Below, piece after piece: positions 29,272-49,204 of a DNA stretch of 64,000 nucleotides. Positions within the stretch are counted from its first letter, which is position 1, and each line of letters opens with the position of its first letter. The DNA is from Enorma phocaeensis. GTDB taxonomy: Bacteria > Actinomycetota > Coriobacteriia > Coriobacteriales > Coriobacteriaceae. A program made the translations under genes and the position numbers. The notes below the pieces were generated by a model. It was given only the letters and a program-made list of their open reading frames with translations, did no database searches and was not told the DNA's origin. Location: the NCBI RefSeq assembly GCF_016901575.1, contig NZ_JACJKQ010000001.1, positions 1 to 64,000 on the forward strand, given 5' to 3'.

Positions 29272-29321
29272 GGCATCGACCTGCTCGGATGAGGCGTTGG
29301 TTTATGTGGGGGAGGGTCATC

Positions 29322-30727: not shown

Positions 30728-30764
30728 TGTCGGGCGCAGGTTTGTGGACGACCTGCGCCCGACA
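30728..30764. repeat. Perfect 14-bp inverted repeat between two SLH genes
   Basis: Arms 30728-30741 and 30751-30764 (TGTCGGGCGCAGGT and its complement) match without error around a 9-base loop. The T-run GTTTTTAT is before, not after, the stem on the plus strand, so it is not a textbook terminator for either strand. It may still end transcription of the CAP-SLH gene. Confidence 0.75.
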
Positions 30765-30884
30765 GGGGTTTCGCAACGTCGCGCACTCAGTCATACTGGG
30801 TTCTGTTCTAACCGGGTAATGCCACGACAACGTGCCTTAATCGAACTATTCCCGCTTGCCGGGCGGCACGCCAAGGAGGACTTC

Positions 30885-32465
30885 ATGCGTCATGCTCATC
30901 GCGCCGTACTTGCCGGTTTCGCACTGGTGCTTTCGCTAGGGGCGGCTCCCCAAGCGGTTTTTGCCGCAGAGGCGGCGGGCGCCGCCTCGATCGTTGAACA
31001 GGCAGACAGGCTCCCCGCTCCGGCCGATTACGACAAGGCGGATTTCTACGAGGGCGCATCGGAGGACGGCATCTCCCTGCTTTCTTCATCGCTTCAGCCG
31101 GTGTACCTTTCGGACGAGATGAAGTACTTCACCAAATACGAGAGCAACAAGAACTACGACCAGGGATTTTCTCGCGGTGACGGCTACAACGCGCTCGGCT
31201 ACTATCAGTTCGACCGCCGCTATTCGCTCGTCGGCTTCATAACCGATGTCTACAATTACAACCCGACGAAGTATGGCATGTTCGCGGCTGTCATCGCACG
31301 CGCCTCGGAGCTCTCAGACGGCTCCGTCTCGCTCTATGATTCCGAGACGGGAAGGCTCACCGAAGTCGGCCAGCTTGCCGAAGATGCCTGGCATGCGGCC
31401 TACGCCGCCGATTCGAGCGAGTTTGCGGCCCTGCAGGATGCCTGGGCATACAACAACTACTATGCAGTGACCGAGCGGTGGCTTGCAAGCGAGTCTGGCG
31501 GGGGCATTGTGATGACGGGCCGAGCCGATTGCGTCAAGGGCCTCGTGTGGAGCATGACCAACCTGTTTGGAACCGGCGGCGTCCGCTATTTCTTGGGATT
31601 GGCCGAGCTTTCAAACAGCATGACGGATCGCCAGATGGTCAACGCGCTGGTGGACGCCTTGGTGGAAAACATCGCCGAGCGCTATCCCAACCAGACGCAA
31701 TATCACAAGGGCTGGATCTCGCGGTATCAACGCGAGCGGGAAGACTGCCTTGCATACATCGCTGAGGACGAGGCGGGCCAGGGAGGCTCCGAGGCGCCTG
31801 CGCCTCCTTCCGAGCCCGACACCCCATCCGAGCCTGAGGCGCCGGGGAACTCCGGGGGAATCGAGACCCTGAGCGCTTTTGCTGATTACGATGCGACCGC
31901 CTGGTACGCGGTCAATCCGGATGACCTTGTCTACACCGTATCGCATGGGTTCATGTCCGGCTACGCCGATGGTTCAGGCGAATTCGGGTTTGAGCGGTCC
32001 ATCACCCGCGGGCAGGTGGCCGTCATCCTCTGGCGCATGGCAGGCGAGCCTTCGGCCAACGCTCGTGACTTTGCCGACGTCGACTACGGCGAATTCTATG
32101 GCGATGCAATCGAGTGGGCGCGATACACCGGCGTGATCAGCGGGTTCTCGAGTGCCAACGGGCCGCTGAACATCTTTGGTCCCGAGCTCACCATTACCCG
32201 CCAGGAGCTTGCCATCATGCTTGCGAACTATGCGTCGAAGATCGGCAGGGTGGACACTTCGACCGATCTGTCGGCAGCTATGTCGATGAGCGGCTGGAAC
32301 GAGGTCGGCTCATGGGCCCAGGCGGCCATGGGCTGGGCTGTTGATAAGGGCGTCATTACGGGTTCCGTCGTGAACGGAGTCGCCCGTCTCAACCCCACGG
32401 GCACGGCGACGCGGGCGCAGGCCGGCGTTATGATTGCCCGACTGTATCGCGACATATTGAGCTGA
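30885..32465 (+). CDS. Secreted putative lysozyme-like protein with SLH repeats
   Basis: A 526-residue exported protein with a signal peptide cut near VFAAEA. After about 70 residues comes an unnamed domain (about 80-300) that begins MKYFTKYESNKNYDQGFSRG and DGYNALGYYQFDRRYSL. The Glu followed by a GYYQF-type motif recalls lysozyme-fold transglycosylases, so a muramidase role is inferred, not shown. A Pro/Glu linker (APAPPSEPDTPSEPEAPG) leads to three SLH repeats (GFMSGYADGSGEFGFERSIT, GVISGFSSANGPLNIFGP, GVITGSVVNG). AAGGAGGA precedes ATG 30885. The 3' end overlaps the convergent membrane protein gene by 38 bases. Confidence 0.85.
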   Translation: MRHAHRAVLAGFALVLSLGAAPQAVFAAEAAGAASIVEQADRLPAPADYDKADFYEGASEDGISLLSSSLQPVYLSDEMKYFTKYESNKNYDQGFSRGDGYNALGYYQFDRRYSLVGFITDVYNYNPTKYGMFAAVIARASELSDGSVSLYDSETGRLTEVGQLAEDAWHAAYAADSSEFAALQDAWAYNNYYAVTERWLASESGGGIVMTGRADCVKGLVWSMTNLFGTGGVRYFLGLAELSNSMTDRQMVNALVDALVENIAERYPNQTQYHKGWISRYQREREDCLAYIAEDEAGQGGSEAPAPPSEPDTPSEPEAPGNSGGIETLSAFADYDATAWYAVNPDDLVYTVSHGFMSGYADGSGEFGFERSITRGQVAVILWRMAGEPSANARDFADVDYGEFYGDAIEWARYTGVISGFSSANGPLNIFGPELTITRQELAIMLANYASKIGRVDTSTDLSAAMSMSGWNEVGSWAQAAMGWAVDKGVITGSVVNGVARLNPTGTATRAQAGVMIARLYRDILS

Positions 32466-33824: not shown

Positions 33825-34199
33825 TCAATTCCCCAGTCTGTCCTCTCTGTCAGATGCGTTCGTATTGCGATGTTCGGCGTTTTGAATAGCAACCTCCTGG
33901 ACCAGAGCGATCAGCTTTGTTCTCAGCGTGGATAGCTCGGATTGGATGGCGAATTCGCGGATGAGCAGGAGCGCGATGATGACGAGAAAGACGAAGTTCG
34001 ACGGCGACTGCACGCCAAGAAAGTCTGCGAAGAAGAAGGCAATCTGGGGAAAGACGGCAAGAACCACGAATCCGAGGCTCATGAAAAGCCAGAAGATCGA
34101 ATCACCCGCAGTGATCTGAGCTTTCTTGATCTTGCGAACGACGAACGCCAATACCACCAGGGCGCATATGATGAGGAAGATACGAAGTGTGGCAGACAT
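33825..34199 (-). CDS. DUF2304-type small membrane protein
   Basis: A 124-residue protein with three helices, the KAQITAGDSIFWLFMSLGFV pattern of DUF2304, and a C-terminal coiled tail (REFAIQSELSTLRTKLIALV). Members usually sit beside a family-2 glycosyltransferase, as here: the glycosyltransferase gene ends 9 bases upstream. It is thought to be an accessory subunit for lipid-linked sugar transfer. GGAGC precedes ATG 34199. Confidence 0.82.
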   Translation of the reverse strand: MSATLRIFLIICALVVLAFVVRKIKKAQITAGDSIFWLFMSLGFVVLAVFPQIAFFFADFLGVQSPSNFVFLVIIALLLIREFAIQSELSTLRTKLIALVQEVAIQNAEHRNTNASDREDRLGN

Positions 34200-34208
34200 G
34201 ATATGCTC

Positions 34209-34895
34209 CTAGTTTTTGAACCACATGGCAAACAGAATGGATACGCAGGCGTTTGCCATGTAGGAGACCGATTTGGATAGGGTGAGGTAGCTTTCTCCTG
34301 CCATGCGCTCACGCATCTCTACCTGGCATTCTCCAACTGTGGCGTTCTTCTTCTTGATGAGGAACGCGAGCGTATCGGGTTCTGGCGCGAGGTCTGTTCT
34401 CGTGGCGAACTGTTCTATCATGCGCCGATTGTACAGGCGCATGCCCGAGGTGGGGTCCTTGATGGTTACCCCACAAGTGAGTCGGATGATAAATGAGATG
34501 AGGTTCGAACCGGCCATGCGCAAAGAATGAGGCTTGGATTTGGTGACGAATCTCGATCCAATGACAATGTCGGAACCTGTCGACCGTTGAAACTCAACAA
34601 GATCAGCGAGGTGTTCGGGGCGATGCTGTCCGTCCGCATCGAATTGGATGACGTTGTCATAGCCATGGCGCCAGGCGTACTTCATCCCTGTCTGAAACCC
34701 TCCCGTGAGGCCCAAGTTCACCGGCTGGTCGATGAGGGCGTATCCATGCTCGCGGCAAAGCGCGGCGGTGCGATCGCGCGATCCGTCATTCACGATGACA
34801 TAGTCAAATTCGGGTGCCCGTGCTCGAAGCTCTTCGATCGTGGAGACGATGGACTCCTCTTCGTTGTAGGCGGGCACAATGACCAATGTTGACAC
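34209..34895 (-). CDS. Family 2 glycosyltransferase (polyprenyl-phosphate sugar transferase-like)
   Basis: A 228-residue GT-A enzyme with VIVPAYNEEESI, VNDGSRDRT, the DxD-type FDADGQHRPEHL and DPTSGMRLYNR, close to the dolichyl-phosphate mannosyltransferase group but with at most a short hydrophobic C-terminus. It may load a sugar on undecaprenyl phosphate. The start is GTG 34895. It is operonic with the DUF2304 gene, 9 bases away. Confidence 0.9.
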   Translation of the reverse strand: MSTLVIVPAYNEEESIVSTIEELRARAPEFDYVIVNDGSRDRTAALCREHGYALIDQPVNLGLTGGFQTGMKYAWRHGYDNVIQFDADGQHRPEHLADLVEFQRSTGSDIVIGSRFVTKSKPHSLRMAGSNLISFIIRLTCGVTIKDPTSGMRLYNRRMIEQFATRTDLAPEPDTLAFLIKKKNATVGECQVEMRERMAGESYLTLSKSVSYMANACVSILFAMWFKN

Positions 34896-34945: not shown

Positions 34946-35100
34946 CGCTCGTGTGCGCCGTGGTCTAGGCTGCGCGGAAAACCAATGATTCCATGGGGAT
35001 TGAAGCCGCCCCTCGCGCCGGGGGATGCGAACCTCTAGCATTACGTGGCTGGTGCAGGTGGTCTGGCCGCGCGGCAGACAGATGGCGGACGGAGGCTGTT

Positions 35101-36351
35101 GTGTCGAACGACACCCTTTCGATTCAGAAAAACATGTTGTGGAATACCGTGGGATCGCTGGTGTTCCTGGGGTGTCAGTGGCTTACGACCATCTTGGTGG
35201 TGCGGCTTTCCAGCGGGTATGACGCGGCGGGGTCGCTGGCGGTCGCCATGGCGGTCTCGAACATCTTTGCGCCCATCGCCCTGTATAAAGTGCGTTCTTT
35301 TCAAGTTTCGGATATCGAGGGTGAGTTTTCCAGCGGCGAATATATCGCCTTTCGCGTGGTGAGCATCGCGGCCGCCCTGGTGATATCCATTCCCTATATG
35401 CTTCTCACCTGTGCTCCCGCCGACTACGCGGTGGTCATCGCCTATCTGTTGTTCCGCGTGGGCGAGGTGTTCATCGATGTGCTGCACGGTGTCGACCAGC
35501 GTTCGCTGCGCATGGATTACTGCGGCAAATCGATGGCGCTCAGGGGCGTGCTGTTCTTAGTGGCGTTTGCGGTCGCGCTCGCGGCGACGAACAGTTTGCT
35601 CGTCGCCGTGATCGCCATGGCGCTGTGCACCTATCCCGTCGTGCTGCTCGACTGGCGTTGGGCGGCGCAGTTCGAATCGCTGACGCCGCAGGTGAACGTG
35701 GCGCATATGGCGTCGCTCGCCAAACAGTGTTTTCCTGCCGTGGTGGGCATGGTGTGCAGCTATGCCGTCACCACGCTGGCGCGTCAGTACCTTGGCATGG
35801 TGCAGGGCAACGAGATGTTGGGCATCTACGCGTCGGTGTGCACGCCGGTGCTCATTATTCAGGCTGGCGCGAGCTACATGTACGCTCCGCTGCTGGGGCC
35901 TTTTGCGCGCGCGTTCACCGAGGGCAACTTCTCGCGATTCACCTCGCTGTTGGGCCGGGTCTGCCTGGGTATTGTGGGCATCAGCGTGGTGGGCACGGTC
36001 GGCTTCTTCTTTTTGGGCGAACCGTTCCTCTCGCTGGTGTTTGGCCCCGAGATCGTGCCGTACACCTATCTGCTCTATGCCGCGCTCGTGTGCACATCGT
36101 TCACGGCATTCATTTCATTTTTGAATGACCTCATGATTGTCATGCGCGAGATGCGGGGCAACATGGTGGGCAACGTGTGCGCCCTCGCCGCGACGGTGCC
36201 GTTTACCATGGTTGCCGTGGCATGGTGGGGGATGAACGGCGTGAGCATTGCTATCTCTGCTGCGTACGCCGTGGGCATCGCCATCATGCTGGTCGTCGTG
36301 GCGCGCCGGCTGCGAACCCAGCGGCGTGTCTCAGAGGCGTCCCCTCGCTGA
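35101..36351 (+). CDS. Polysaccharide flippase-type membrane protein (MOP superfamily)
   Basis: A 416-residue protein with about 12 helices and no signal peptide. It opens IQKNMLWNTVGSLVFLGCQW, as in polysaccharide exporters of the Wzx/RfbX type, with later helices GMVCSYAVTTLARQYLGMV. It should flip lipid-linked oligosaccharide across the membrane. The start is GTG 35101 with GGAGG seven bases upstream; the frame is open to 34993 but unlike the family. Confidence 0.85.
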   Translation: MSNDTLSIQKNMLWNTVGSLVFLGCQWLTTILVVRLSSGYDAAGSLAVAMAVSNIFAPIALYKVRSFQVSDIEGEFSSGEYIAFRVVSIAAALVISIPYMLLTCAPADYAVVIAYLLFRVGEVFIDVLHGVDQRSLRMDYCGKSMALRGVLFLVAFAVALAATNSLLVAVIAMALCTYPVVLLDWRWAAQFESLTPQVNVAHMASLAKQCFPAVVGMVCSYAVTTLARQYLGMVQGNEMLGIYASVCTPVLIIQAGASYMYAPLLGPFARAFTEGNFSRFTSLLGRVCLGIVGISVVGTVGFFFLGEPFLSLVFGPEIVPYTYLLYAALVCTSFTAFISFLNDLMIVMREMRGNMVGNVCALAATVPFTMVAVAWWGMNGVSIAISAAYAVGIAIMLVVVARRLRTQRRVSEASPR

Positions 36352-36474: not shown

Positions 36475-38730
36475 ATGAGACGGCTTTCTGCTGCGCTGCT
36501 GCTTGTGCTCACGTTGGGGCTTGGCGTGTCGCCCGCGTCGCTGTGGGCGGACGATATGGCACACGCCAACGGGGCGGCAACGGGGGAGTCCTTGTCGGCC
36601 TCGACGCAGCTTGGTGCTGCGGGCGATGCGTTGGCAGTGGAGGACTCGACCGCAGACGTTGCTGCGCCGAGTGATGACACAGCGGCAGACGGTGAGCATC
36701 TGACGCCTGTCGAGCAGCCTGACGCGACCCCTGCGCCCGACGCAGGTGCGGCCGCGCAAACGGTCGAGGTGCTGGACTACACCGGCATCGAGCTGTCTGA
36801 AGAGCGCATTGTGCTGGGCCAGACCGTCGTCGTCACCCCGCAGGTGAGCGGGATGGACGAAGCAGGCCTTCGCTTCAACTATGTTTGGAACTACGAAGGG
36901 GCTTGGAAGGAGTGGTCGTCGACCGTCAAGGAGACCGGTTCGCAAACGGCCGATGCCACCTGGAAGTTCACACCTTCGCGGGTTGGCCGCTACGAGATCT
37001 ATATCGATGTTGTGCAGCCCGACGGCACGACACTCACCAAGACCACGACGTTGACCGTAATGCAAAACTGGGCGGTCGACGATCTTGTGGTGACCGTGGG
37101 CGATGACGCCTACGAGGCGGCAATTCCGCTTGGCGAGTCGGTGAACCTGACGTGTGCCATGGCGGACGGCAGCGTCCTGCAGGGCCTCACCTATAACTTT
37201 GGCTGGCGTTTTGGTGACGGTTGGAACGAATGGGACTCGATCATGAAGTCCGGCGCCGCCTCATCAACAAACGTATGGACGTTCACGCCGGCCAAGGCGG
37301 GGACCTATCACCTGTTTGCCGACGTCATGGGACCGGACGGATCGAAGGAGACGGTCGAGAAGACCGTGGTGGTCGGCCTCGCTTACGCAGCGACCGGCGT
37401 GGAGCTCTCTGCGGAAAGCATCGAGTTCGGCTCATCGGTCGTGGTGTCTCCCGTGCTGCCCGCCTCGCTCGATGGGCTCACATTCAACTACGTGTGGTGC
37501 TTGAACGGCGGCTGGGACGTGTGGTCCTCGACGGTGAAGGAGGAGGGCGAAGAGACCTCCGAGAGCACGTGGACGTTCACCCCGTCGCAGCGCGGCACGT
37601 ATGTGCTGTACGTCGACGTGGTGGGATCCGATGGCACGCGTCAGACGCTCAGCACAAATCTCAACGTGAACAACGGTTGGGATTTCTCGGGCGTCTCGCT
37701 CGACAAGCCGTCGCCACAAACGGTGCGCACACCCATTACCGTGCGTCCGAATGTCACTGGCGAGCGTTGCGACGTGCTTGAGTTCAACTACGTCTGGGTG
37801 CGTGACAACTGGGCGGAATGGTCGTCGACGGTGAAGGAGACGGGCGCCCGTACCACGGAGACGTCGTTCACCTTCACACCGACGAAGAGCGGCGCGTATA
37901 CGTTCTATATCGACGTGGTGGACACGCGGACGGGCGAGACGATCACCAAGCAGGCCACCCTTCAGGTGAATGCGCGCTGGACGCTCAAGGGTCTCGACCT
38001 GTCCTATGCGAGCCCCATGCGCCCGTACGCCCAGGTCACCATGAGGCCGATTCTCGAGGGCGACACCTCCGGCTTGACGTTCAACTATGTGTGGCAGGGC
38101 GACAACTGGTACGTGTGGGATTCCGACCTCAAGAACGGCGGCTACACCACGGCCGCCTCAAAGACGGTGACTATCGGCAACGGTGGCATCTACAGCTTCT
38201 ATGTCGACGTGGTCGACCAGTACGGCGAGAAGCAGACCGCACAGGTGCTGAACATCCGCGCCCGCTATGCCGCCGATATCATCAACCGTATTGAGGGGAG
38301 CCTGGCGTCGCAGTCGCCCTATAACGGCTCGAAGTTCGAAAACGCCCTCATGGCTGCGGGCGGCACCTTGTGCAACAATCGCCGCGGCTGGTGGTGCGCC
38401 ACGTACCTGTGGTGGGGCTTCCAGCAGAACAACGCGCTCGATCTGTGGGGCACGAGCGGCATGCAGGCCGATCCCGAATGGCTGGCGAATGAGTTTCGCG
38501 CTTTGGGCCGGTTCCACAATGGAACGTCGGGCGTGCAGCGTGGCGACGTCTTGTTCTCCTATTGGGCACCGTGGCGAGCAGGACAGTGGATCACCCATGC
38601 CTCCTATGTGACAAACGTCACCGCCTCCACCGTGACGGTGCTTGAGGGCAACATGGGCTACAGCAGCGTGTGGCACACCTACTTGCTGTGGGATTCCCAT
38701 TTCCGCGGCTATGCGCGTCCGGCTTACTAA
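36475..38730 (+). CDS. Secreted five-repeat protein with C-terminal CHAP-like cysteine peptidase domain
   Basis: A 751-residue exported protein. It has a signal peptide (RRLSAALLLVLTLGLGVSP), a Thr/Ala/Asp-rich spacer to about 98, five tandem aromatic repeats of about 100 residues (about 100-595), then a catalytic domain of about 150 residues. Each repeat carries a FNYVW-type strand, a W-x-W-S-S-T-V-K block and a late YxxYxDVV strand. The end domain has Cys641 (WWCATYLWW), a His in ITHASYV and an Asn in LEGNMG, the CHAP/amidase triad. It should cut peptidoglycan amide bonds. It is one of three proteins here with this repeat (others at 41004 and 42729). The repeats probably bind a wall polymer (inference). 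Confidence 0.85.
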   Translation: MRRLSAALLLVLTLGLGVSPASLWADDMAHANGAATGESLSASTQLGAAGDALAVEDSTADVAAPSDDTAADGEHLTPVEQPDATPAPDAGAAAQTVEVLDYTGIELSEERIVLGQTVVVTPQVSGMDEAGLRFNYVWNYEGAWKEWSSTVKETGSQTADATWKFTPSRVGRYEIYIDVVQPDGTTLTKTTTLTVMQNWAVDDLVVTVGDDAYEAAIPLGESVNLTCAMADGSVLQGLTYNFGWRFGDGWNEWDSIMKSGAASSTNVWTFTPAKAGTYHLFADVMGPDGSKETVEKTVVVGLAYAATGVELSAESIEFGSSVVVSPVLPASLDGLTFNYVWCLNGGWDVWSSTVKEEGEETSESTWTFTPSQRGTYVLYVDVVGSDGTRQTLSTNLNVNNGWDFSGVSLDKPSPQTVRTPITVRPNVTGERCDVLEFNYVWVRDNWAEWSSTVKETGARTTETSFTFTPTKSGAYTFYIDVVDTRTGETITKQATLQVNARWTLKGLDLSYASPMRPYAQVTMRPILEGDTSGLTFNYVWQGDNWYVWDSDLKNGGYTTAASKTVTIGNGGIYSFYVDVVDQYGEKQTAQVLNIRARYAADIINRIEGSLASQSPYNGSKFENALMAAGGTLCNNRRGWWCATYLWWGFQQNNALDLWGTSGMQADPEWLANEFRALGRFHNGTSGVQRGDVLFSYWAPWRAGQWITHASYVTNVTASTVTVLEGNMGYSSVWHTYLLWDSHFRGYARPAY
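36775..38262 (+). repeat. Five tandem aromatic repeats (coding) in the CHAP protein
   Basis: Units of about 300 bases begin near 36775, 37066, 37375, 37669 and 37969. The FNYVW-type strand falls near 36874, 37192, 37484, 37783 and 38081. Unit 2 has the variant YNFGWRFGDGW. Copies are diverged at DNA level, so they are old. They read as a beta-sandwich module; a link to Y_Y_Y or GBS-Bsp-like repeats is possible but unproven. Confidence 0.8.
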
Positions 38731-38770
38731 GGGCGGGTGACGTGATGAGCGGCGCGAGGGCGCGCTGACC

Positions 38771-39739
38771 ATGGCGGCTGAACGAAACAACACGTTGGAC
38801 CTGCTTCGCATTGTCGCGTTTTGCGGCGTCGTGGCGCTTCATACGGTCAGCCCCGATGGGCCGCTTTCGGCGGGTCTGAACATCGCGTCCCGCTTCGGCG
38901 TGCCGTTCTTCTTTGCGGTGGCAGGGTTTTTTTCGCTCCGCGCGGGCCGGGCGAAGCTGCGCAGGCGGTTGGCGCATGTGGCTCGCATCGCGCTGGCCGC
39001 TGTCGCGCTGTATGCGGTGACGACGATGGTGGGCCTTACGCCCAGCTTCGAGGCGTGCTGCGGTGGCGCCGATTACCCGATGCTGGGCTCTGTGCTGTGG
39101 AACTTCTTTGTTTGGAACGCGTATCCGCCCGCCTATCCACTTTGGTTCCTGTTTGCGCTGCTCTACGTCTACTTCGTTTGGATGCTGCTGTGCGAGCGCC
39201 CCGGTGGGATGCGACTCTTCTGCGTCTGCGGCGCGTGCCTGCTGGCGGCGCGCGTGGCAGTGGGGGAGATTGGCGGTTTCATAGCCCCGTTGAGCGATCC
39301 CATGCGTTCCTGGCTGTTGACAGGCATCCCCTCGTTTGCGTTGGGGTTGCTGCTGCGGCAGCACCAGGACAAGCTGGCATCTTGGAGCACGGGATTTGAC
39401 GCGCTTATGGTGACTGCCGGGGCGGTATGCGCCGTCATGGAGGCGGCGACGTTTGGCTTGCAGGAGTTGTATGTCGGAACGGTCATCGTCGTGACTGGCG
39501 TGTTCGCCGCCGCGTTGCGCCATCCATGTGCAGCCGACGCTCGTGGCTGGTTTGCCGCCTTGCGCTGTGGGGAAACCAGCATGATCGCCTATGTGGTCCA
39601 CTATGCCGTGATCATGCTGCTCATGCGGTGGCAGGCGTCCACCGAGATGATCCGCTTCTTGGCTACCTGTTCCGCTTCGTTACTTGTGGGATTTGTTATC
39701 GCTGCGAACGCGGGGGCACTGAGGCGACGGCGCGCCTAA
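38771..39739 (+). CDS. Acyltransferase family 3 membrane protein
   Basis: A 322-residue protein with about ten helices. The N-terminus has the family signature NNTLDLLRIVAFCGVVALH with the conserved His, followed by VPFFFAVAGFF and a basic RAGRAKLRRRLAH loop. Such enzymes add acetyl or other acyl groups to exported sugars, so it probably decorates the surface glycan. It starts 40 bases after the CHAP gene and is probably co-transcribed with it. Its last 44 bases overlap the convergent glycosyltransferase. Confidence 0.88.
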   Translation: MAAERNNTLDLLRIVAFCGVVALHTVSPDGPLSAGLNIASRFGVPFFFAVAGFFSLRAGRAKLRRRLAHVARIALAAVALYAVTTMVGLTPSFEACCGGADYPMLGSVLWNFFVWNAYPPAYPLWFLFALLYVYFVWMLLCERPGGMRLFCVCGACLLAARVAVGEIGGFIAPLSDPMRSWLLTGIPSFALGLLLRQHQDKLASWSTGFDALMVTAGAVCAVMEAATFGLQELYVGTVIVVTGVFAAALRHPCAADARGWFAALRCGETSMIAYVVHYAVIMLLMRWQASTEMIRFLATCSASLLVGFVIAANAGALRRRRA

Positions 39740-40862
39740 GCGCCTGCTCCGCGCTGTGCGCGGCGGCCTGCCAGGAATATTCGGTGCGCACCTTGTCGCA
39801 TACCTTGGTGCCCTGCACGTGCGTGGCAGCTCGATGGCGTGCGGCATGACTCAAGGCTTCTGCGATTGCCGCGGCGTCATCTGTGGGGAGCAGCATGCCC
39901 AGCGTGTCATCGGTGATCAGCTCGGGTGCCACGCCCACCGCCGTCACGGCGGCGGGCGTTTCACATGCCGCCGCCTCAAGCAGCACGGCGCCAAATCCTT
40001 CCGAGCGCGATGGCAGGCAGAGCAGATCTGCTTGCAGGAGCAGGGCGGCGACGTCAGCCTTGTCGAGCGGGCCCAGCAGTCTTACGTTGGGCGGCGCGAT
40101 GCGTTCCAGCTCGCCGCGCAAGGGTCCGTCGCCCGCCAACGCGATCATGCAATCAACCTGTTGCTCGTGGAGCATCCGGGCGGCTTCAACAAGCTGCGAC
40201 ACGCCTTTTTCAGGCACCAGACGTCCCACAAAGGCCACCAGGAGCTGTTCGGGCCGTGCGGCGCAATCGTGCCGGAAATCACGCGTCGAGGTTGTGTCGC
40301 GAAAGGCGTCGGCATCGATGGCGTTAGGGATTACGCCGCGGGCTTCAATGCCAAAGGTGCGCAGCCATGCGCAACTTTTTTGCGACACGCCGTAGCATGC
40401 GGGGCGCGTCGCCTTGATAACGGCGGTGATGGCATGCTCATAGAGTTTAATGGCGGTGTCGAGCATCGGGTTGCCCAAGGTGAGATACGCCGATCCGTGA
40501 TCGAGCACCACGGGCGTCAACCCTTTGCTGCGCGCATAGCGCGCCCCCTGCACCGAGTGCGGGTAGAACCGGGTGTTGACCAGCACGCCGTCGCAGGGCA
40601 GCTGTTCAAGCTGTTGCCAGAGCTGGCGAAACCGCGCATTGCGACGGGGCAGCGGCAGCCTGCCGCCCAACAGGTCGTGGCAGGGCAGGCGAACCACCGT
40701 GACGCCGCCGTCGCGCTCGACATCGTCCACGCCTGCGACATTGCTGGTCACCACGGTCACGCGATGCCCGGCTGCGGCCAATTCACGCGCAATGTGCTCC
40801 GTGAAGTTTTCGACGCCGCCAATGCTTGGCCGATACAGTGCGGAAAAAATGACGTAATGCAT
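39696..40862 (-). CDS. Family 4 glycosyltransferase
   Basis: A 388-residue GT-B enzyme. It has the N-terminal YRPSIGGVENFTEHIARELA acceptor loop, IPNAIDADAF, VAFVGRLVPEKG at the start of the donor domain, and the donor-binding SRSEGFGAVLLEAAACETP (E-x7-E). It should extend the surface glycan from a nucleotide sugar in the cytosol. It is convergent with the acyltransferase gene (44-base overlap). Confidence 0.92.
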   Translation of the reverse strand: MHYVIFSALYRPSIGGVENFTEHIARELAAAGHRVTVVTSNVAGVDDVERDGGVTVVRLPCHDLLGGRLPLPRRNARFRQLWQQLEQLPCDGVLVNTRFYPHSVQGARYARSKGLTPVVLDHGSAYLTLGNPMLDTAIKLYEHAITAVIKATRPACYGVSQKSCAWLRTFGIEARGVIPNAIDADAFRDTTSTRDFRHDCAARPEQLLVAFVGRLVPEKGVSQLVEAARMLHEQQVDCMIALAGDGPLRGELERIAPPNVRLLGPLDKADVAALLLQADLLCLPSRSEGFGAVLLEAAACETPAAVTAVGVAPELITDDTLGMLLPTDDAAAIAEALSHAARHRAATHVQGTKVCDKVRTEYSWQAAAHSAEQALRRAVASVPPRSQR

Positions 40863-41003
40863 GACTGCCTTTCACCTCGCTATCCGTATTGTAGCGAGCC
40901 GGCGACGGCCTCTGGCGGTCATGGCGGCGGCGTCATGGGATCGACCGTTTATCGGGAGCGCGACGGCCGGTGTTTGCTATCGTAGGGGTGGGAGGTGGCA
41001 GTT

Positions 41004-42563
41004 ATGAAAACGCTGCGTGTGCTTACGGTGTCGTTGCTGAGTCTCCTATGGGCAGCCTTGGTGGTCGCCTGTCCGCGTGCCGCGCTCGCCGAGGCGTTTG
41101 ATCGTGCGGCGGCGACCGATTTCGCACAGCTCGAGGCATCTCCGTCCAGCGTGCAGCTGGGGGCATCGGTCGATATCATCCCGCAGCTTGTGGGGGACGC
41201 TGCGGGGTGCCGCTTCAATTACGTATGGAACTACGAGGACGCGTGGTCCGACTGGTCTTCAACGGTGCTGGAGACGGGCGATGAGACCAACGAGGCGACA
41301 TGGGTCTTTACGCCCTCACGGGCGGGTTGGTATCGCATCTATGTCGATGTGATCACGCCCGACGGCGTCAAAACGACGAAGTCTGTGGATGTGGGCGTTT
41401 CATATCCCTATGACGTCAACGGCATGCAGGTGAGCGCCTCTTCGATTGCGCTCGGCGAATCGGTGACCGTGACGCCCGATGTTGTGGGCGATGCGGGCGG
41501 CGTGCGATACAACTATGTGTGGCAGCGCGGCGACACATGGGATGAATGGGGGTCGACGGTCAAGGACACCGGTGACACCACGGCGTCTACCTCTTGGACG
41601 TTCACACCGTCGAAAAGCGGGCTCTATCATCTTGCGCTCGATTTCTACCACCTCGACGGCGTCAAGCAGACGCTGACGACGGATGTGCGCGTTGCGTCGG
41701 GCTGGAGCTGCGAGGGCATACGCCTTGCGGCGCCTGAGCGCATCGTGACGGGCTCGTCGGTGACCTATGCATGCCCCGCTGTGGGCGAGGCGGCCTCGTA
41801 TGTGCGGTTCAACTATGTATGGCAACGCGACAACTGGGCGGAGTGGTCTTCGACACTGCTTGAGACCGGAGACTATACGGCCGACGTCGACCAGGTGTTT
41901 GCTGTGCCGCGAAGCGGCTATTATGTGCTGTATGTCGATGTCTACGACACGCGATCCGGCGAGGTGGCGACGTATGAGCGGGCATTCACGGCACATCCGA
42001 CCAACTATATGATTGCCGGCGCCACGCGCGGCGCCGTGGTGTCGTGGCTGGCGGGACACCAGGGCGGCTACTATATGGGCACACCCTACTGTTGGACCGT
42101 GCGCCCCAGCGATTGCACTTATCCGGTTGGCAGTCCCCGTTGGGATGGTTTTACCGGCATGAACTGCGCCGGGTTTGTTGCGCATGCGTATCAAAGCTGT
42201 GGCGCCAACCTTGCGGCAATCACGGCGGCAACCCCCTTCATTCCCGCGGGAATGGGGACCAACGGCGAATACGTCAACGCATGGCGCTGGTACGGCTACG
42301 CCATCTCATCCGGCGCGACAACCTATACGTATGACTCGGTCGCCGCGTTGTTGGCCGACGGCAAGGCGGAAAAGGGCAACCTGCTGTTCTTCTATCCGCT
42401 GAATCTAGCTACGACCGACTGTCACCTTGGGTTCTTCTGGGGCGACAATCCCCATCAGAACCTGATGTGGCATTCCGATCCTTATGGCAACCGCTTGTCA
42501 GACATCGTGAATGTCGCCGGTCCGTCACGCATCATGCTGATCAAGGGCGTGCCGACCGACTGA
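41004..42563 (+). CDS. Secreted three-repeat protein with C-terminal NlpC/P60-like cysteine peptidase domain
   Basis: A 519-residue exported protein. It has a signal peptide (LTVSLLSLLWAALVVACPRA), three aromatic repeats (about 37-329) like those of the CHAP protein, then a domain of about 185 residues. That domain has Cys388 in GMNCAGFVAHAY, a His in DCHLGFFWG and a second His in LMWHSD, the NlpC/P60 triad. It probably cuts within the stem peptide. ATG 41004 has GGAGG eight bases upstream; GTG 40995 is in frame but overlaps that site. It is followed 165 bases later by the L,D-transpeptidase gene with the same repeat. Confidence 0.85.
   Translation: MKTLRVLTVSLLSLLWAALVVACPRAALAEAFDRAAATDFAQLEASPSSVQLGASVDIIPQLVGDAAGCRFNYVWNYEDAWSDWSSTVLETGDETNEATWVFTPSRAGWYRIYVDVITPDGVKTTKSVDVGVSYPYDVNGMQVSASSIALGESVTVTPDVVGDAGGVRYNYVWQRGDTWDEWGSTVKDTGDTTASTSWTFTPSKSGLYHLALDFYHLDGVKQTLTTDVRVASGWSCEGIRLAAPERIVTGSSVTYACPAVGEAASYVRFNYVWQRDNWAEWSSTLLETGDYTADVDQVFAVPRSGYYVLYVDVYDTRSGEVATYERAFTAHPTNYMIAGATRGAVVSWLAGHQGGYYMGTPYCWTVRPSDCTYPVGSPRWDGFTGMNCAGFVAHAYQSCGANLAAITAATPFIPAGMGTNGEYVNAWRWYGYAISSGATTYTYDSVAALLADGKAEKGNLLFFYPLNLATTDCHLGFFWGDNPHQNLMWHSDPYGNRLSDIVNVAGPSRIMLIKGVPTD
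41112..41990 (+). repeat. Three tandem aromatic repeats (coding) in the NlpC/P60-like protein
   Basis: Units start near 41112, 41401 and 41698; the FNYVW-type strand falls near 41214, 41508 and 41809. Unit 3 has QRDNWAEWSSTLLETG, nearly the same as unit 4 of the CHAP protein (VRDNWAEWSSTVKETG). Confidence 0.8.
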
Positions 42564-42667
42564 TAGCGTTCGCACCCATGGTCGCGACTACGCAACAACG
42601 ACGATGACCGGCCGGCACGGCGACGGCGCCGTTCACGGGGTCGGGTGGCGGCGCCATGGCGGCGCAG

Positions 42668-42673
42668 TATGAT
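42668..42673 (+). promoter_or_regulatory. Candidate -10 for the L,D-transpeptidase gene
   Basis: TATGAT, 55 bases before ATG 42729. No -35 is seen. The gap upstream is GC-rich with several short dyads around 42620-42660. Confidence 0.3.
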
Positions 42674-42728
42674 GGATCCACAGCATGTCGGTCGACCCGT
42701 TTTGACGGTTTGACGGGAGGGAATGCCC

Positions 42729-44180
42729 ATGCGGTGGAAGCGTTTGACGCGTTGGTGCCTCGGCTTGTTGGTCGCATTGGCGGGGATGGGGGCGCTGCCC
42801 ACAACGCCTGCGTATGCGGAAGACCAAGTCCGCCTTGAAACTGTTGGCGATTGGAGCGTGTCGGCACTCCAGCTGTCTTCGGAGGGGGACGCGCTTACGA
42901 CTTCGGTGCCCTGGGGCCAGGAGATTGACGTGCGTTTGGTGTTGGAGCCGGGAAGCGACAATGCCGGTTTGCGGTACAACTTTGGCTGGCGTTTCGGCGA
43001 CACGTGGGACGAGTGGGATTCCTTGGCGCTCCACGGAGCAGAACAAGCGGATGCCACATGGTCGTTTAGGCCCACCAAAGTGGGGCGCTACTATGTGTTT
43101 GCCGACGCCATAGCCCCCGACGGTCGCAAAGAGACGCTCGATGCCACTATCGAAGTCGATAAGGGGTGGAGCTTCGATGGCCTGGCGCTCGACAAGACGT
43201 CGCCGCAATACGTGGACACGGACCTCACGCTTTCTGTTCAAGTGTCGGGCGTGCGCTCAAAGGCCGTCGTGTTCAACTATGTGTGGCAGCGCGACAATTG
43301 GGCTGACTGGTCGTCTACGGTGAAAGAGACCGGCGAGCATGTGACAGAGCGTTCTCACACGTACACCTTCACCCACAGTGGCGACTACACCCTCTACGTT
43401 GACTGCCACGATCAAGAGACGGGGCAGACGTGGACATACGAGCAGGATTTCCGCGTCAACAAGACATGGAATCTCGAGCGCTTGGATCTGTCGTACGAGA
43501 CGCCGCTCTACATCGGCGGGGGCGTGTATGGCACGGCGGTCGTCTCGGGAGATACCGCGGGGCTGAAATACAACTTCGTGTGGGAGCGTGACGGTTGGGC
43601 CGATTGGAATTCAAACCTTCGCGCAGGCTCCTATACAAGCTCGTCGACGATGTCGTGGGTGCCGATTGCGGTTTCGGGCACCTATTCGTTCGCCGTCGAT
43701 GTCGTCGATGCGCACGGGGAGCAGCAGACCGTCAGTGTGGGTGGCGTCGTAGTCGGTTCTCCCGTTCGTGATCGCATGACGAGCATGGCGCAGGGCTATG
43801 CGAGCAACACCTCGTGGCTCATCATGATCGACACCACCAATAACTACCTGGGTATTTATCGAGGTGGTCGAGGGGCGTGGAACCTCGATCGGTTCTGGAT
43901 CTGCTCAACGGGCGCCCCGGCGACGCCGACGGTGCTGGGAGAGTATACCGTCAAGGCGAAGGGCTATTCGTTCGGCCATGGCTACACCTGCTACTACTAC
44001 ACGCAGTTCTACGGTGACTACCTCATTCATTCTGTGAAGTACTATCAAGGGACGTTCAATGTGCTCGACGGGCGTATGGGCATGAATATATCCGAGGGAT
44101 GTATTCGCCTTCCCATCGACCAGGCAAAGTGGATTTGGGACAATGTGCCCACGGGCACCAAGGTGGTGACCTATCGGTGA
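42729..44180 (+). CDS. Secreted three-repeat protein with C-terminal L,D-transpeptidase (YkuD) domain
   Basis: A 483-residue exported protein. It has a signal peptide (KRLTRWCLGLLVALAGMGAL, cut near AYAED), three aromatic repeats (about 38-339) and a YkuD domain (about 350-483). The domain has SWLIMIDTTNNYLGIY, the catalytic His in LIHSVKYY, and SEGCIRLP with Cys458. L,D-transpeptidases make 3-3 cross-links or attach proteins to the wall. ATG 42729 is chosen because GGGAGG is eight bases upstream; ATG 42723 would leave two. The dehydratase gene follows by 26 bases. Confidence 0.88.
   Translation: MRWKRLTRWCLGLLVALAGMGALPTTPAYAEDQVRLETVGDWSVSALQLSSEGDALTTSVPWGQEIDVRLVLEPGSDNAGLRYNFGWRFGDTWDEWDSLALHGAEQADATWSFRPTKVGRYYVFADAIAPDGRKETLDATIEVDKGWSFDGLALDKTSPQYVDTDLTLSVQVSGVRSKAVVFNYVWQRDNWADWSSTVKETGEHVTERSHTYTFTHSGDYTLYVDCHDQETGQTWTYEQDFRVNKTWNLERLDLSYETPLYIGGGVYGTAVVSGDTAGLKYNFVWERDGWADWNSNLRAGSYTSSSTMSWVPIAVSGTYSFAVDVVDAHGEQQTVSVGGVVVGSPVRDRMTSMAQGYASNTSWLIMIDTTNNYLGIYRGGRGAWNLDRFWICSTGAPATPTVLGEYTVKAKGYSFGHGYTCYYYTQFYGDYLIHSVKYYQGTFNVLDGRMGMNISEGCIRLPIDQAKWIWDNVPTGTKVVTYR
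42840..43745 (+). repeat. Three tandem aromatic repeats (coding) in the L,D-transpeptidase protein
   Basis: Units start near 42840, 43165 and 43465. Unit 1 has YNFGWRFGDTWDEWDSL, the same variant as unit 2 of the CHAP protein (YNFGWRFGDGWNEWDSI), which suggests whole repeats were exchanged or duplicated between genes. Confidence 0.8.
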
Positions 44181-44197: not shown

Positions 44198-45253
<1,056 letters not shown>

Positions 45254-45272: not shown

Positions 45273-47003
45273 TTACCTCGGCAGGCGTTTGTGCGAAGCC
45301 GACTTCATAGGCGCCAACCAGCTTCCGGCAAGGCAGATGAGCAACGGGGCGGTGTAGATGAGCGGCGTCGCATATCGCGAGTCATACATGGGCGAGAGCA
45401 TGATGCTGGCAATGCAGAGCAGCACCGGGATGAACACGGGAAGCCAGCGGGGCGCGTGGCGCACGCAGATCCAAAACGCCAGCGCGGGGATCCACAGACA
45501 ATAGGTGACGCCCCACAGCACGATGTTGAGGACGGGCGTGGCGGCGATGGCGTTGAACAGGTTCGTTGCCGCATCGCGCCAACCTGCGAGCGCATCGGGC
45601 TGGTAGAGCAGGGGGTTGCCGCCGTTTTCCATATCCCAGGTGATCTGCTCCAGAAAGACCGTCCCGCCAGGGGCGACAAAGCCCGTGGTCATGGCGATCA
45701 TGGCCTGCAGGTACGTGGTGGGGTGGCGAAGACCTTCGACGAGCCAGGTTTTTGCATACGCCACCCACGCGTCACGAGAGGCATCTTGCACGTAGGCGTA
45801 TTTCACGGGGTCTGCCCATTTGGGGGAATACCGATCCGCCAGCGTGTCGTAGACCAGCACGTCGTCGATAGCCTGACGCTCTTCATCGCTCAGCTCGTTT
45901 TCGTGAAGCGAGACATAGCGCGCCGTCATTTGGAAAGGCGTCCCCATGATTTCTTGCTTTCCTCCGGGAACAACGTTCAGGAGGGGGAATACGACGGCAG
46001 GCAGGAGCACCCAAATGAGTGCGCCGGGAATGGCGGCCTGCAGCAGGCAACGGAGGCGCGAACCGCGATAAATGAGCGCAAAGAGCACCATGCTGCCCAC
46101 CACGATGTAGACGCCCGTCTTTTTGGTGAGAGCGAGCAGGGAGCCCAGCACGATGCTCATGATGAGGAAGCGCCGTTTACCAAGGACCTTGCCGCGTGTT
46201 CTCACTATCTCGATGATGAATACAAACCAGACAATGTAGATGCCCGAGAACAGCATGTCTTTGAGCACCGTTGAGGCGTAGTTTCCAAAAATGGGAATGA
46301 GGCAGACGAATACATAGGCACCGATGCAGAGCGGACGCGGCGTACCGATGGATCGAAGGTAGGCGAAGGCATAGGAGAACGCGATGGCCGTACCGATCGA
46401 CTGCAAGACGGCGACGGCAAAGACGCCAACGTTCCATGTCCCGAACAGCTGGTGGCTCACCCAGCCGAACGCGCCGTAAATGAGTGTGTCAAACAGCGGA
46501 TGGTGATCGGAAAACTGGGCGCCCTCCACAGGCACGTTCGGTACAGACCACACGCCGATGCTCACCGGATCGCCATGCGGATACACCTGCGTGATCTGGT
46601 AGTACGTGTCATAGTTCATGGAGCCGGGATAAAACGCGATGATCCAGAAGGCCCAAAAGAGCAGGAGGATGCCCGCAAACAGCAAGACGCTTTTGGTGCT
46701 GCGCCGGGGGATGAACCGGTCGAGCATGGAGACGTCTGCGGCATGGGATCCCGCTGCTGCGACACGGCGCGCCACCATGCCCAGCAGCAGATCGCCCGCG
46801 AGGAGAGCGACGGCGGCGACAGGCGTGAACACCAGCGAGCGCACGAGCATGTCGCCTGTGGTGAGATCCGTCCATCCGTTCGCCATGAGTGCGCTTCCCA
46901 TGACGCCCAAGATGGCAAGCAGCCATGAAAGCGCAAGGAACAGCAACGCCTTTCCCACGGTCGCCGGACGGATTCTGTTTAACGTAATACCGTGTTCAGC
47001 CAT
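45273..47003 (-). CDS. DUF6020-type multi-spanning membrane protein
   Basis: A 576-residue protein with about 12-13 helices and a large outer loop. The motif IIAFYPGSMNYDTYYQITQV after the third helix, FSDHHPLFDTLIYG, and GNYASTVLKDMLFSG recall GT-C fold enzymes that use lipid-linked sugars, where an acidic residue follows the first helices. I believe this is the DUF6020 family. A glycan-modifying or polymerising role is inferred. It is divergent from the DUF6541-type gene at 47173. Confidence 0.75.
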   Translation of the reverse strand: MAEHGITLNRIRPATVGKALLFLALSWLLAILGVMGSALMANGWTDLTTGDMLVRSLVFTPVAAVALLAGDLLLGMVARRVAAAGSHAADVSMLDRFIPRRSTKSVLLFAGILLLFWAFWIIAFYPGSMNYDTYYQITQVYPHGDPVSIGVWSVPNVPVEGAQFSDHHPLFDTLIYGAFGWVSHQLFGTWNVGVFAVAVLQSIGTAIAFSYAFAYLRSIGTPRPLCIGAYVFVCLIPIFGNYASTVLKDMLFSGIYIVWFVFIIEIVRTRGKVLGKRRFLIMSIVLGSLLALTKKTGVYIVVGSMVLFALIYRGSRLRCLLQAAIPGALIWVLLPAVVFPLLNVVPGGKQEIMGTPFQMTARYVSLHENELSDEERQAIDDVLVYDTLADRYSPKWADPVKYAYVQDASRDAWVAYAKTWLVEGLRHPTTYLQAMIAMTTGFVAPGGTVFLEQITWDMENGGNPLLYQPDALAGWRDAATNLFNAIAATPVLNIVLWGVTYCLWIPALAFWICVRHAPRWLPVFIPVLLCIASIMLSPMYDSRYATPLIYTAPLLICLAGSWLAPMKSASHKRLPR

Positions 47004-47172
47004 ATGGTGCCCTTAGTGTCGAGTGAGCCTAGTCCATCGCTATGGTACACATTCTTGTGAGACGGTTCTAGGTGGAACGAGGGGTTATTGCTGTTTCGAC
47101 TCGTTGTACGCTTGGTAACGTGCCTGCCCGCTGGTGTAGACTGAATGCCCAGGGAAGAGGGGAGAAAGCCGT

Positions 47173-49161
47173 ATGTGGGTTCAATTTGCCATTGCTGCCG
47201 CCTTGGGCGCATGTGTACTGTATCTTCCTGGTTTGATTCAGCTCTGGCGCACCGCCTTGCCGCGCAAATACCTGGTGGCGTTTGCTCCGCTTCTGTCCGT
47301 ATTTGAGCTGGCCGCTGTGGGAACCGTATGCGGCCTTGCGGGGATACGCGTTTCCGGGCTGGTCTTGCTTGCTGTCCTCGCGGTGCTCTCAATAGGCATC
47401 GCCTTGGTTTTGTTTGCTGCGATGCGAACTGCTTCCCGCCACACGTGGTCGAAATGGGATGTGATCAACCAAGGCCTATATGTGGTCATGGGTGTTGCGG
47501 TGACCACGCTGCTCTTTATTCGGCCGCTCGATGGCGCAGACTCTTTTGCGCAAATGTTCGATAACGCCTTTCACCTCAACCTGATGTCCTCCTTTGTCGA
47601 GACCGGTAGCTTTTCGGTAGCTCAAGCAACCCAGTATCCCTCCGACACGCTCGTGCCGTTTGGCGATCTCGCGTTTTATCCGGCGGCGTGGCATATTCTG
47701 ACAGCTGCGGTGGCCGACGTGCTTCATGTCTCGCTGGCTTTGGCGGAGAATGCGATCAATGTCGTGCTGGTCGCATGCGTCTTCCCCCTCAGCATGTATA
47801 CCTTTGTGGACAGGTTGTTTGGTGACAGGGCGCGCATTCATATTTGCGCTGCGTTGTGTACCCTGGCGTTCACGGCGTTTCCTTGGGGGCCGCTTGCGTA
47901 TGGGCCGCAGTACCCCAATTTCGCCGCGTTTGTTTTGTTGCCTGCGGCAATGTCCTGCTTTATCTCTCTTTTCACCCAGCAGGGTGGGCGCGCGGCCTAT
48001 GGTGTCGTATTCGTCTTTGCTTGCTGTTCGCTCGTTTGCTTACAACCCAATGCGATCTTCACGGCAGCGGTGATTCTCACGCCGTGGTGCATGCTTCGTA
48101 TGTATCGCGTGGTGTTGGAGGTCAAGGAGAAGCGGTCACTTGCGTTGGGCGCCGCCGGTGCCTTCTTTGTTTTCGTCGCTTTGATTTGGGTGGTTTGCCA
48201 GCATCTGCCGGTCTTTACGGATGTGGTTGATTATGCCTGGTCGACGTATGCCACGCCATTCCAAGCGATTATGGACTATCTCGATCTTGGCTATCGCAAC
48301 ACCGTTGCGCAGGTGTTGCTTGCCTTGATTGTGTTCGCCGGTATCGTTCGCGTATTGAATATGCGCACCCACCGTTGGTTGCTTGGCGCCTACGGATACT
48401 TCTGCTTGGGATATCTTTTGAGCGGCGCGCTTGAGGGAGGACCCTTTGGCACGTTGATCACGGGATTTTGGTACAACGACATTGATCGCATTGCATCGGG
48501 TGCGGTCCTTGTCATGATCCCCCTTGCTGCATGTGGTCTCGATGGCCTTGCGGCTGCTGTTGCCGGGGCGTTAAGTGGCAATCGTGGACGTGCGTGCTCC
48601 GTGCCGGCATACGTGTGTTGCGCGGGGGCAATGATGTTTGCCGTATATCTGCCGAACTTCATTTTGGCTGGTCAAGGAGATGTGGTCACATCGTTTGGGA
48701 GGCGATATGAGCGCTTTGTCGAGCTGGCGACCGTTCATTCCCTCACCGACGACGAGGAGGCGTTTCTTGCAGAATGCAAGCAGGTTGTGGGGGATGCCGT
48801 TGTGGCCAACAATCCCTACGACGGCAGCGTGTACGCGTATATGACCCATGGCATCAACCTCTTGAACAGACATTACTTTGCCCAAGATGACGAAGCACAC
48901 GACCTGATCAACAATCGTCTTGACGAGCTGTCAGCGGCGGAAGATGTTCGAAATGCGGCGCAGACGGAACAGGTGGCGTATGTTGTTCAGCTTGATGCTC
49001 CGGGCCTTACGGGTGACCACAGCGTATACCAGCCGTTCGGCACCGACCAGACATCGGTGGATGGCGGGTGGGGCGGCCTCATGAGAATAAATGACACCAC
49101 GCCGGGGTTTGAGGTGGTGCTGAGCAGCGGCGACATGAGGTTGTATCGAGTTGTCGCATAG
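47173..49161 (+). CDS. DUF6541-type large membrane protein (paralogue 1)
   Basis: A 662-residue protein with about 13 helices in the first 500 residues and a soluble C-terminal part. Marks are DNAFHLNLMSSFVETGSFS, FYPAAWHILTAAV, AFTAFPWGPLAYGPQYPNF, GFWYNDIDRIASG and the end block INDTTPGFEVVLSSGDMRLY. It is a clear paralogue of the gene at 49205, which lies tail to tail 43 bases away. The look is that of a GT-C-type enzyme (acidic outer-face residues, PAAWH); function is unknown. The ribosome site is AGGGGAG. Confidence 0.78.
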   Translation: MWVQFAIAAALGACVLYLPGLIQLWRTALPRKYLVAFAPLLSVFELAAVGTVCGLAGIRVSGLVLLAVLAVLSIGIALVLFAAMRTASRHTWSKWDVINQGLYVVMGVAVTTLLFIRPLDGADSFAQMFDNAFHLNLMSSFVETGSFSVAQATQYPSDTLVPFGDLAFYPAAWHILTAAVADVLHVSLALAENAINVVLVACVFPLSMYTFVDRLFGDRARIHICAALCTLAFTAFPWGPLAYGPQYPNFAAFVLLPAAMSCFISLFTQQGGRAAYGVVFVFACCSLVCLQPNAIFTAAVILTPWCMLRMYRVVLEVKEKRSLALGAAGAFFVFVALIWVVCQHLPVFTDVVDYAWSTYATPFQAIMDYLDLGYRNTVAQVLLALIVFAGIVRVLNMRTHRWLLGAYGYFCLGYLLSGALEGGPFGTLITGFWYNDIDRIASGAVLVMIPLAACGLDGLAAAVAGALSGNRGRACSVPAYVCCAGAMMFAVYLPNFILAGQGDVVTSFGRRYERFVELATVHSLTDDEEAFLAECKQVVGDAVVANNPYDGSVYAYMTHGINLLNRHYFAQDDEAHDLINNRLDELSAAEDVRNAAQTEQVAYVVQLDAPGLTGDHSVYQPFGTDQTSVDGGWGGLMRINDTTPGFEVVLSSGDMRLYRVVA

Positions 49162-49204
49162 CTCATCATGCCGGCACATGCGCCGTCAGCATGGCGTCGA
49201 CGTG

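Follow-up and report, generated by a model that had tools for sequence, protein, structure and literature searches.

A tandem aromatic repeat on three wall-enzyme proteins of Enorma phocaeensis recurs on wall-polysaccharide exporters of Coriobacteriia and may be a glycan-binding anchor

Why do three neighbouring secreted proteins share one repeat module but end in three different cell-wall enzymes? The question is raised by a 64,000-nucleotide stretch of the Enorma phocaeensis genome (assembly GCF_016901575.1, contig NZ_JACJKQ010000001.1, positions 1 to 64,000; hereafter the window), where proteins A, B and C combine a signal-peptide-like start, several copies of an aromatic repeat and a catalytic C-terminus, and lie within a surface-glycan locus (Table 1). 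A first-pass annotation had read the repeat as a common targeting module, perhaps for the glycan made by the neighbouring genes. Our analysis makes it fairly probable that the repeat is a glycan-binding anchor on wall enzymes which, in relatives, would also recognise a polymer for export. Its second home in Coriobacteriia is a cytoplasmic ATP-binding cassette (ABC) exporter, usually the N-terminus of a TarH/Wzt-type ATPase.

The three open reading frames (ORFs) are real, all lie on the plus strand, and their signal-peptide-like starts were judged by reading the sequence, not by a predictor. The 5, 3 and 3 copies of one module seen at first reading were confirmed by alignment and by a profile built from the 11 repeats. 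Each repeat spans about 98 residues, with a mean column identity of 48% over the 11 copies and the invariant columns N, W, W, W, S, G, G, Y, D, G and T. Searched against the whole genome, the profile found precisely these 11 copies and nothing elsewhere (E 7e-39 to 1e-28). The catalytic residues named in the first-pass annotation are all in place (Table 1), and its claim of three different wall enzymes stands to different degrees. The YkuD assignment of protein C (PF03734, E 4.9e-16) is certain from its sequence, with both catalytic residues present, and this is the sole C-terminus directly above the Pfam cut-off. Protein B is classed as NlpC/P60-like because of a sub-threshold match (PF00877, 16.8 bits, cut-off 23) with its three catalytic residues present; a homologous protein in stretch L095 reaches 22.4 bits. 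The C-terminus of A has no direct CHAP match (PF05257, cut-off 26 bits) and is called CHAP-like because its closest relatives, in L072 and L073, pass the cut-off with 27.4 and 27.3 bits.

The repeat is not wholly new, being a divergent member of the Y_Y_Y/PKD-like domains, with which it shares the fold class and which also occur on other wall amidases here; it differs from them as a distinct subfamily with a W..W(S/G)S motif. Matches to Y_Y_Y (PF07495) and PKD (PF00801) are weak to moderate, and the Y_Y_Y score exceeds its cut-off of 26.6 bits for A only (A 39.5, B 9.8, C 19.2 bits). An AlphaFold model of the repeat is a beta-sandwich (predicted local distance difference test score 94.6) of the Ig-like type; a fold search with it returned PKD domains among the top matches (Z 9.6-9.8, root-mean-square deviation 2.1-2.2, 81 aligned), level with FnIII and further sandwich folds. 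The SLH profile (PF00395) has no match in A, B or C, and no named wall-binding domain corresponding to the repeat was found in literature searches.

Is the arrangement peculiar to the window? The repeat is present in 44 of the 398 Coriobacteriia genomes surveyed and in 3 of the 67 genomes of the window's family; the repeat profile did not find it in two genus-mates, and protein A as a single-sequence query against genome contigs found no relative. Around the repeat matches we read 40 stretches, which yielded 33 non-exporter repeat ORFs besides the window's own. Wall enzymes were recognised on 30 of them, whether from Pfam, from visible catalytic motifs or from close similarity with a neighbour that had been scanned, and comprise amidase_3 with glucosaminidase, YkuD, CHAP, NlpC/P60, C39, GH25 and VgrG3-like lysozyme. 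Two of the remaining three are interrupted by contig ends and the third is a calcineurin-like phosphoesterase (L069). Leaving exporter subunits aside, repeat proteins thus nearly always end in a wall enzyme, in support of the first-pass reading. Neighbouring pairs of repeat proteins with differing enzymes recur (L068, L072, L080, L094, L095/L096), so the arrangement in the window is one case of a pattern. A lineage-wide A/B/C trio was rejected: among the genus members searched it occurs in the own genome only, and relatives have other combinations. Seven other genomes (L061, L065, L067, L073, L075, L076, L094) have homologs of the window's Wzx-like protein next to repeat genes, and with GT2/DUF2304 or GT4 homologs counted, L095, L096 and L098 join them; in L073 nearly the entire window cassette is repeated beside a repeat gene. 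Secreted repeat genes are thus found beside cassette homologs in several other genera. Two further observations concern anchors. The window's lysozyme at 30744-32465 has SLH domains, and a related VgrG3-like lysozyme (L087, 8156-9643) has two repeats instead, which points to anchor swapping. In L080 (5105-11733), adjoining YkuD and NlpC/P60-like proteins each bear CWB2 domains and one repeat.

On the cytoplasmic side, a dozen of the first profile matches were ABC ATPases of ~368 residues with one N-terminal repeat, not secreted. Where checked, repeat-bearing ATPases adjoin an ABC2 permease, often with a row of GT2 genes downstream. On ATPase N-domains the 11-repeat profile reaches 83 bits at most when run across the class and 92 bits when run on the extracted set, its scores grading from 92 down to about 14 bits across Atopobiaceae-like genomes, and the most diverged ATPase domains still match the secreted repeats in profile-profile comparison (Prob 97.7, E 1.6e-12). 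Conversely, a profile made from ATPase domains of other organisms alone recovers 11 of 11 window repeats (best E 1.2e-24), which puts the relationship far beyond chance. Homology of the repeat and the ATPase N-domain is confirmed by these reciprocal sequence-profile searches. In two genomes (G261 and G321) the domain is found on the exporter permease (ABC2_membrane confirmed), next to an ATPase without such a domain. An artefactual origin of the ATPase fusions was rejected: the frames are uninterrupted in many independent genomes, and in 37 N-domains examined no membrane-like stretch lies ahead of the ATPase domain. ATPase and secreted repeat gene lie ~2 to 40 kb apart on one contig in G364, G366, G111, G206, G270, G316, G399 and G196, the first three of which have CWB2-like, not repeat-bearing, ATPases; the distance in the own genome is 282 kb. 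The exporter copy also bears on one alternative, that the repeat binds peptidoglycan itself and brings enzymes to their substrate, with an unrelated co-option on the exporter. Nearly all secreted carriers are indeed peptidoglycan enzymes (the L069 phosphoesterase is the exception). However, an exporter ATPase never meets mature peptidoglycan, and secreted repeat genes adjoin the glycosyltransferase/Wzx-like cassette in several genera, so that we regard this alternative as improbable.

What occupies the same slot in related exporters? We sorted the exporter modules of 80 genomes and counted module matches genome-wide. The own exporter ATPase (L104), encoded outside the window's glycan locus, is 74% identical to repeat-bearing ATPases and carries three SLH domains (E 2e-20). 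SLH is also found on the ATPases of genus-mates, some g3 genomes, six g11 genomes and two f3 genomes; TRAE-like motifs are kept in 10 of 13 cases, in one repeat of the own ATPase. An f3 clade has a CWB2-like region (Pfam E 1.3e-10 in L072, sub-threshold in L091), and ChW was seen on one ATPase only (E 1e-22; L206, 2059-3402). Scanned Coriobacteriia ATPases have no Wzt_C (PF14524), instead showing SLH, CWB2, ChW or no match, while three scanned extended homologs outside the class (L268, L283, L292) carry Wzt_C, a proven O-antigen-binding domain. The best reason for counting the aromatic repeat among modules known for glycan recognition or wall attachment is that several such module types occur on this exporter ATPase family, and because the repeat sits where SLH, CWB2, ChW or Wzt_C sit in relatives, a glycan is the best guess for its ligand. 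A ~120-residue region without assignment separates ATPase and SLH in L172-L177, L236 and L237 and is lacking in the genus of the window, a sign that the fusions arose separately. Genomes with CWB2-like ATPases (L072, L091, L189-L220) are mostly without other CWB2 proteins.

The slot also helps to judge whether the repeat might be a mere PKD/Y_Y_Y-type spacer or protein-protein domain with no glycan affinity, adding length on enzymes and stabilising the dimer on the exporter. Its Pfam and fold matches would fit such a role, as would the loss of most conserved tryptophans in the diverged ATPase domains. Yet it recurs on exporter subunits whose kin carry recognition or attachment modules, has moved to the permease in two genomes, and is almost confined to wall enzymes and exporter subunits, whereas a neutral spacer should also turn up on unrelated proteins. 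A spacer role thus appears rather unlikely.

Does the module on the exporter match that on the secreted proteins of the same genome? For SLH it does: all 13 SLH-ATPase genomes have SLH beyond the ATPase, compared with SLH matches in 5 of 67 others (Fisher p 3e-11), and in the weakest case, G031, checked place by place, the SLH protein besides the ATPase is a GH25 lysozyme at a distance of ~8 kb. On the ATPase-core tree, SLH on the ATPase needs at least 3 changes on supported branches. Within g3 and g11, those sampled relatives whose ATPases are bare lack SLH matches, and genome SLH content follows ATPase SLH in 2 to 3 of 3 independent pairs, never the opposite. Among repeat-ATPase genomes, secreted repeats occur in 9 of the 19 in the clear class and in 0 of the 11 diverged ones, versus 5 of the 50 remaining genomes (p 0.0014 when the clear class is compared and 0.033 when all repeat-ATPase genomes are, both computed without kinship correction). 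The coupling is weaker for the repeat than for SLH and absent for CWB2.

Several of these results weigh against a glycan anchor that would also recognise a polymer for export. The three independent SLH pairs are too few for significance (sign p 0.25), a secreted relative is detectable in only 9 of 30 repeat-ATPase genomes, and co-variation of CWB2 between ATPase and the rest of the genome is unsupported (p 0.22). Further, the exporter of the own genome bears SLH and not the repeat, diverged ATPase domains have lost most of the repeat's conserved tryptophans, and a generic Ig/PKD/FnIII-like sandwich is uninformative on function. The stricter expectation of secreted repeats in every repeat-ATPase genome was rejected, failing with two profiles in about two thirds of them.

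Taking the glycan-anchor reading as a whole, tandem repeats outside the cell would fasten a range of peptidoglycan enzymes (amidase/glucosaminidase, CHAP, NlpC/P60, L,D-transpeptidase, lysozymes) to a polysaccharide of the wall. The single repeat that many relatives have on the cytoplasmic side of their wall-polysaccharide ABC exporter would recognise the lipid-linked polymer once it is complete and before it is exported, in the way that the carbohydrate-binding domain (CBD) of Wzt recognises O antigen, and in Coriobacteriia this recognition slot would be filled by various wall-anchor modules (aromatic repeat, SLH, CWB2-like, ChW). One recognition chemistry might thus operate on both sides of the membrane, the polymer end, or cap, being read inside for export and again outside for anchoring. 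More tentatively, as a possibility that we put below the anchor itself, interchangeable versions of a module could serve export and anchoring, with the exporter licensing only polymers competent for anchoring and both sides swapping together. If true, this would join how exporters sense a finished polymer with how the surface proteome fits the wall glycan. The usual view of SLH, CWB2 and ChW is that they belong to surface proteins that are exported, and exporter fusions would offer a way to predict the ligand class of uncharacterised wall-anchor domains.

Which polymer, then, would A, B and C bind? From ~29 to 59 kb of the window, wall enzymes are intermixed with glycan genes, and the earlier description as a surface-glycan locus is upheld by Pfam matches to GT2, DUF2304, GT4, acyltransferase, RmlB-like, DUF6020, DUF6541 and DUF4422 genes; the protein at 34993 is called Wzx-like by inference, as it has no Pfam match. 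The locus carries three SLH-anchored wall proteins (29289, 30744, 55990) and the three repeat-anchored ones, with glycan genes between. Judged by gene order, A, B and C probably bind a polymer that the surrounding GT2/DUF2304/Wzx-like/GT4 cassette makes or decorates. Since the own exporter has SLH, the repeat's ligand is tied to the local glycosyltransferase/Wzx cassette by synteny alone, and it may be a different polymer or a different epitope on the same polymer. The targeting module first proposed is partly supported, by the wall-enzyme endings, the cassette synteny in other genera and the position in the exporter slot, and its link to the neighbouring glycan by synteny. A sub-case compatible with the glycan-anchor reading is that repeat and SLH proteins of the own genome bind different epitopes of the same polymer, A, B and C being second clients of the SLH-ATPase exporter. 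SLH and repeat proteins are interleaved in one locus (29289-57990), and the two related lysozymes described above carry one anchor each. On the other hand, no other SLH-ATPase genome among the 80 has the repeat, including two genus-mates, and we consider this sub-case unlikely. Within the locus, the ORF at 49205 was grouped with the DUF6020/DUF6541 proteins because the same homologs matched, not by a Pfam scan; 49205-51280 and 47173-49161 are two oppositely oriented DUF6541-type membrane proteins and candidate GT-C enzymes.

Table 1. Coordinates of proteins A, B and C, of their glycan locus and of exporter components (window positions unless a contig or stretch is named)
Feature	Position	Strand	Basis
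Secreted CAP protein with SLH domains	29289..30686	+	Pfam
VgrG3-like lysozyme with SLH	30744..32465	+	Pfam
DUF2304 small membrane protein (proposed GacJ-like, inferred analogy)	33825..34199	-	Pfam; homologs beside repeat genes elsewhere
GT2 glycosyltransferase (proposed GacI-like)	34209..34895	-	Pfam; synteny
Multi-membrane protein, Wzx-like by inference	34993..36351	+	no Pfam match
Protein A, 751 aa: signal-peptide-like start, 5 repeats, CHAP-like C-terminus	36475..38730	+	residues read; relatives L072/L073 match CHAP
Five repeats of A	36778-37071, 37111-37386, 37393-37680, 37681-37980, 37984-38268	+	11-repeat profile, E 6.7e-39 to 1.9e-31
CHAP-like catalytic domain of A (C641, H708, N726)	38269..38730	+	residues; relatives' CHAP match
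Acyltransferase 3	38771..39739	+	Pfam
GT4 glycosyltransferase	39696..40862	-	Pfam
Protein B, 519 aa: signal-peptide-like start, 3 repeats, NlpC/P60-like C-terminus	41004..42563 (ORF from GTG 40995)	+	
Three repeats of B	41121-41411, 41412-41705, 41709-41999	+	11-repeat profile
NlpC/P60-like domain of B (C388, H474, H490)	42009..42563	+	residues; weak Pfam score
Protein C, 483 aa: signal-peptide-like start, 3 repeats, YkuD L,D-transpeptidase	42729..44180 (ORF from 42723)	+	
Three repeats of C	42858-43169, 43173-43469, 43473-43751	+	11-repeat profile
YkuD domain of C (H434, C458)	43818..44168	+	E 3.3e-17; residues
Nucleotide-sugar dehydratase, RmlB-like	44198..45253	+	Pfam
DUF6020 and DUF6541 membrane proteins, candidate GT-C glycosyltransferases (inferred)	45273..51280	.	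Pfam for ORFs at 45273, 47173
GH25 lysozyme with SLH domains	55990..57990	+	Pfam
Own exporter ATPase with three C-terminal SLH, next to ABC2 permease (PF01061)	contig C1 325609-326877 (L104 9582-10964)		outside the window's glycan locus
Repeat-like domain at permease N-terminus, neighbouring ATPase bare	L112 7165-8337; L113 6990-8159		

Three known systems help to place these proteins. Streptococcal rhamnan receives side chains outside the cell through GacI/GacJ/GacK-type components (PMC8035078), and the GacIJKL system resembles the window's cassette in that a GT-A enzyme, a small membrane protein, a Wzx-like protein and GT-C candidates are clustered; the likeness is one of component set only, in which GT2 and DUF2304 are assigned by Pfam and the Wzx-like and GT-C roles are putative. 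SLH domains bind the non-reducing terminal pyruvylated N-acetylmannosamine of secondary cell wall polymers (PMC6081394). Like the repeat they are modular, non-covalent anchors on wall enzymes, and they also occur on the own exporter ATPase; the repeat of A, B and C differs as a beta-sandwich with no sequence kinship to SLH. The closest parallel to the exporter fusions is the C-terminal CBD of Wzt (PF14524), which binds non-reducing-end glycan structures (PMC9445017) and is likewise an extra domain carried by the ATPase in a homologous polysaccharide exporter; the own L104 shares with that system a homologous nucleotide-binding domain beside an ABC2 permease. In contrast to Wzt, the slot in Coriobacteriia holds SLH, CWB2-like or ChW modules at the C-terminus or the aromatic repeat at the N-terminus, modules that otherwise occur on secreted wall proteins and for which a part in export recognition is proposed here. 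In the open-licence literature, no mention of an exporter ATPase with SLH, CWB2 or ChW came to light. The recognition principle is known from Wzt, and the use of wall-anchor modules common to the secreted proteome in that role appears to be new.

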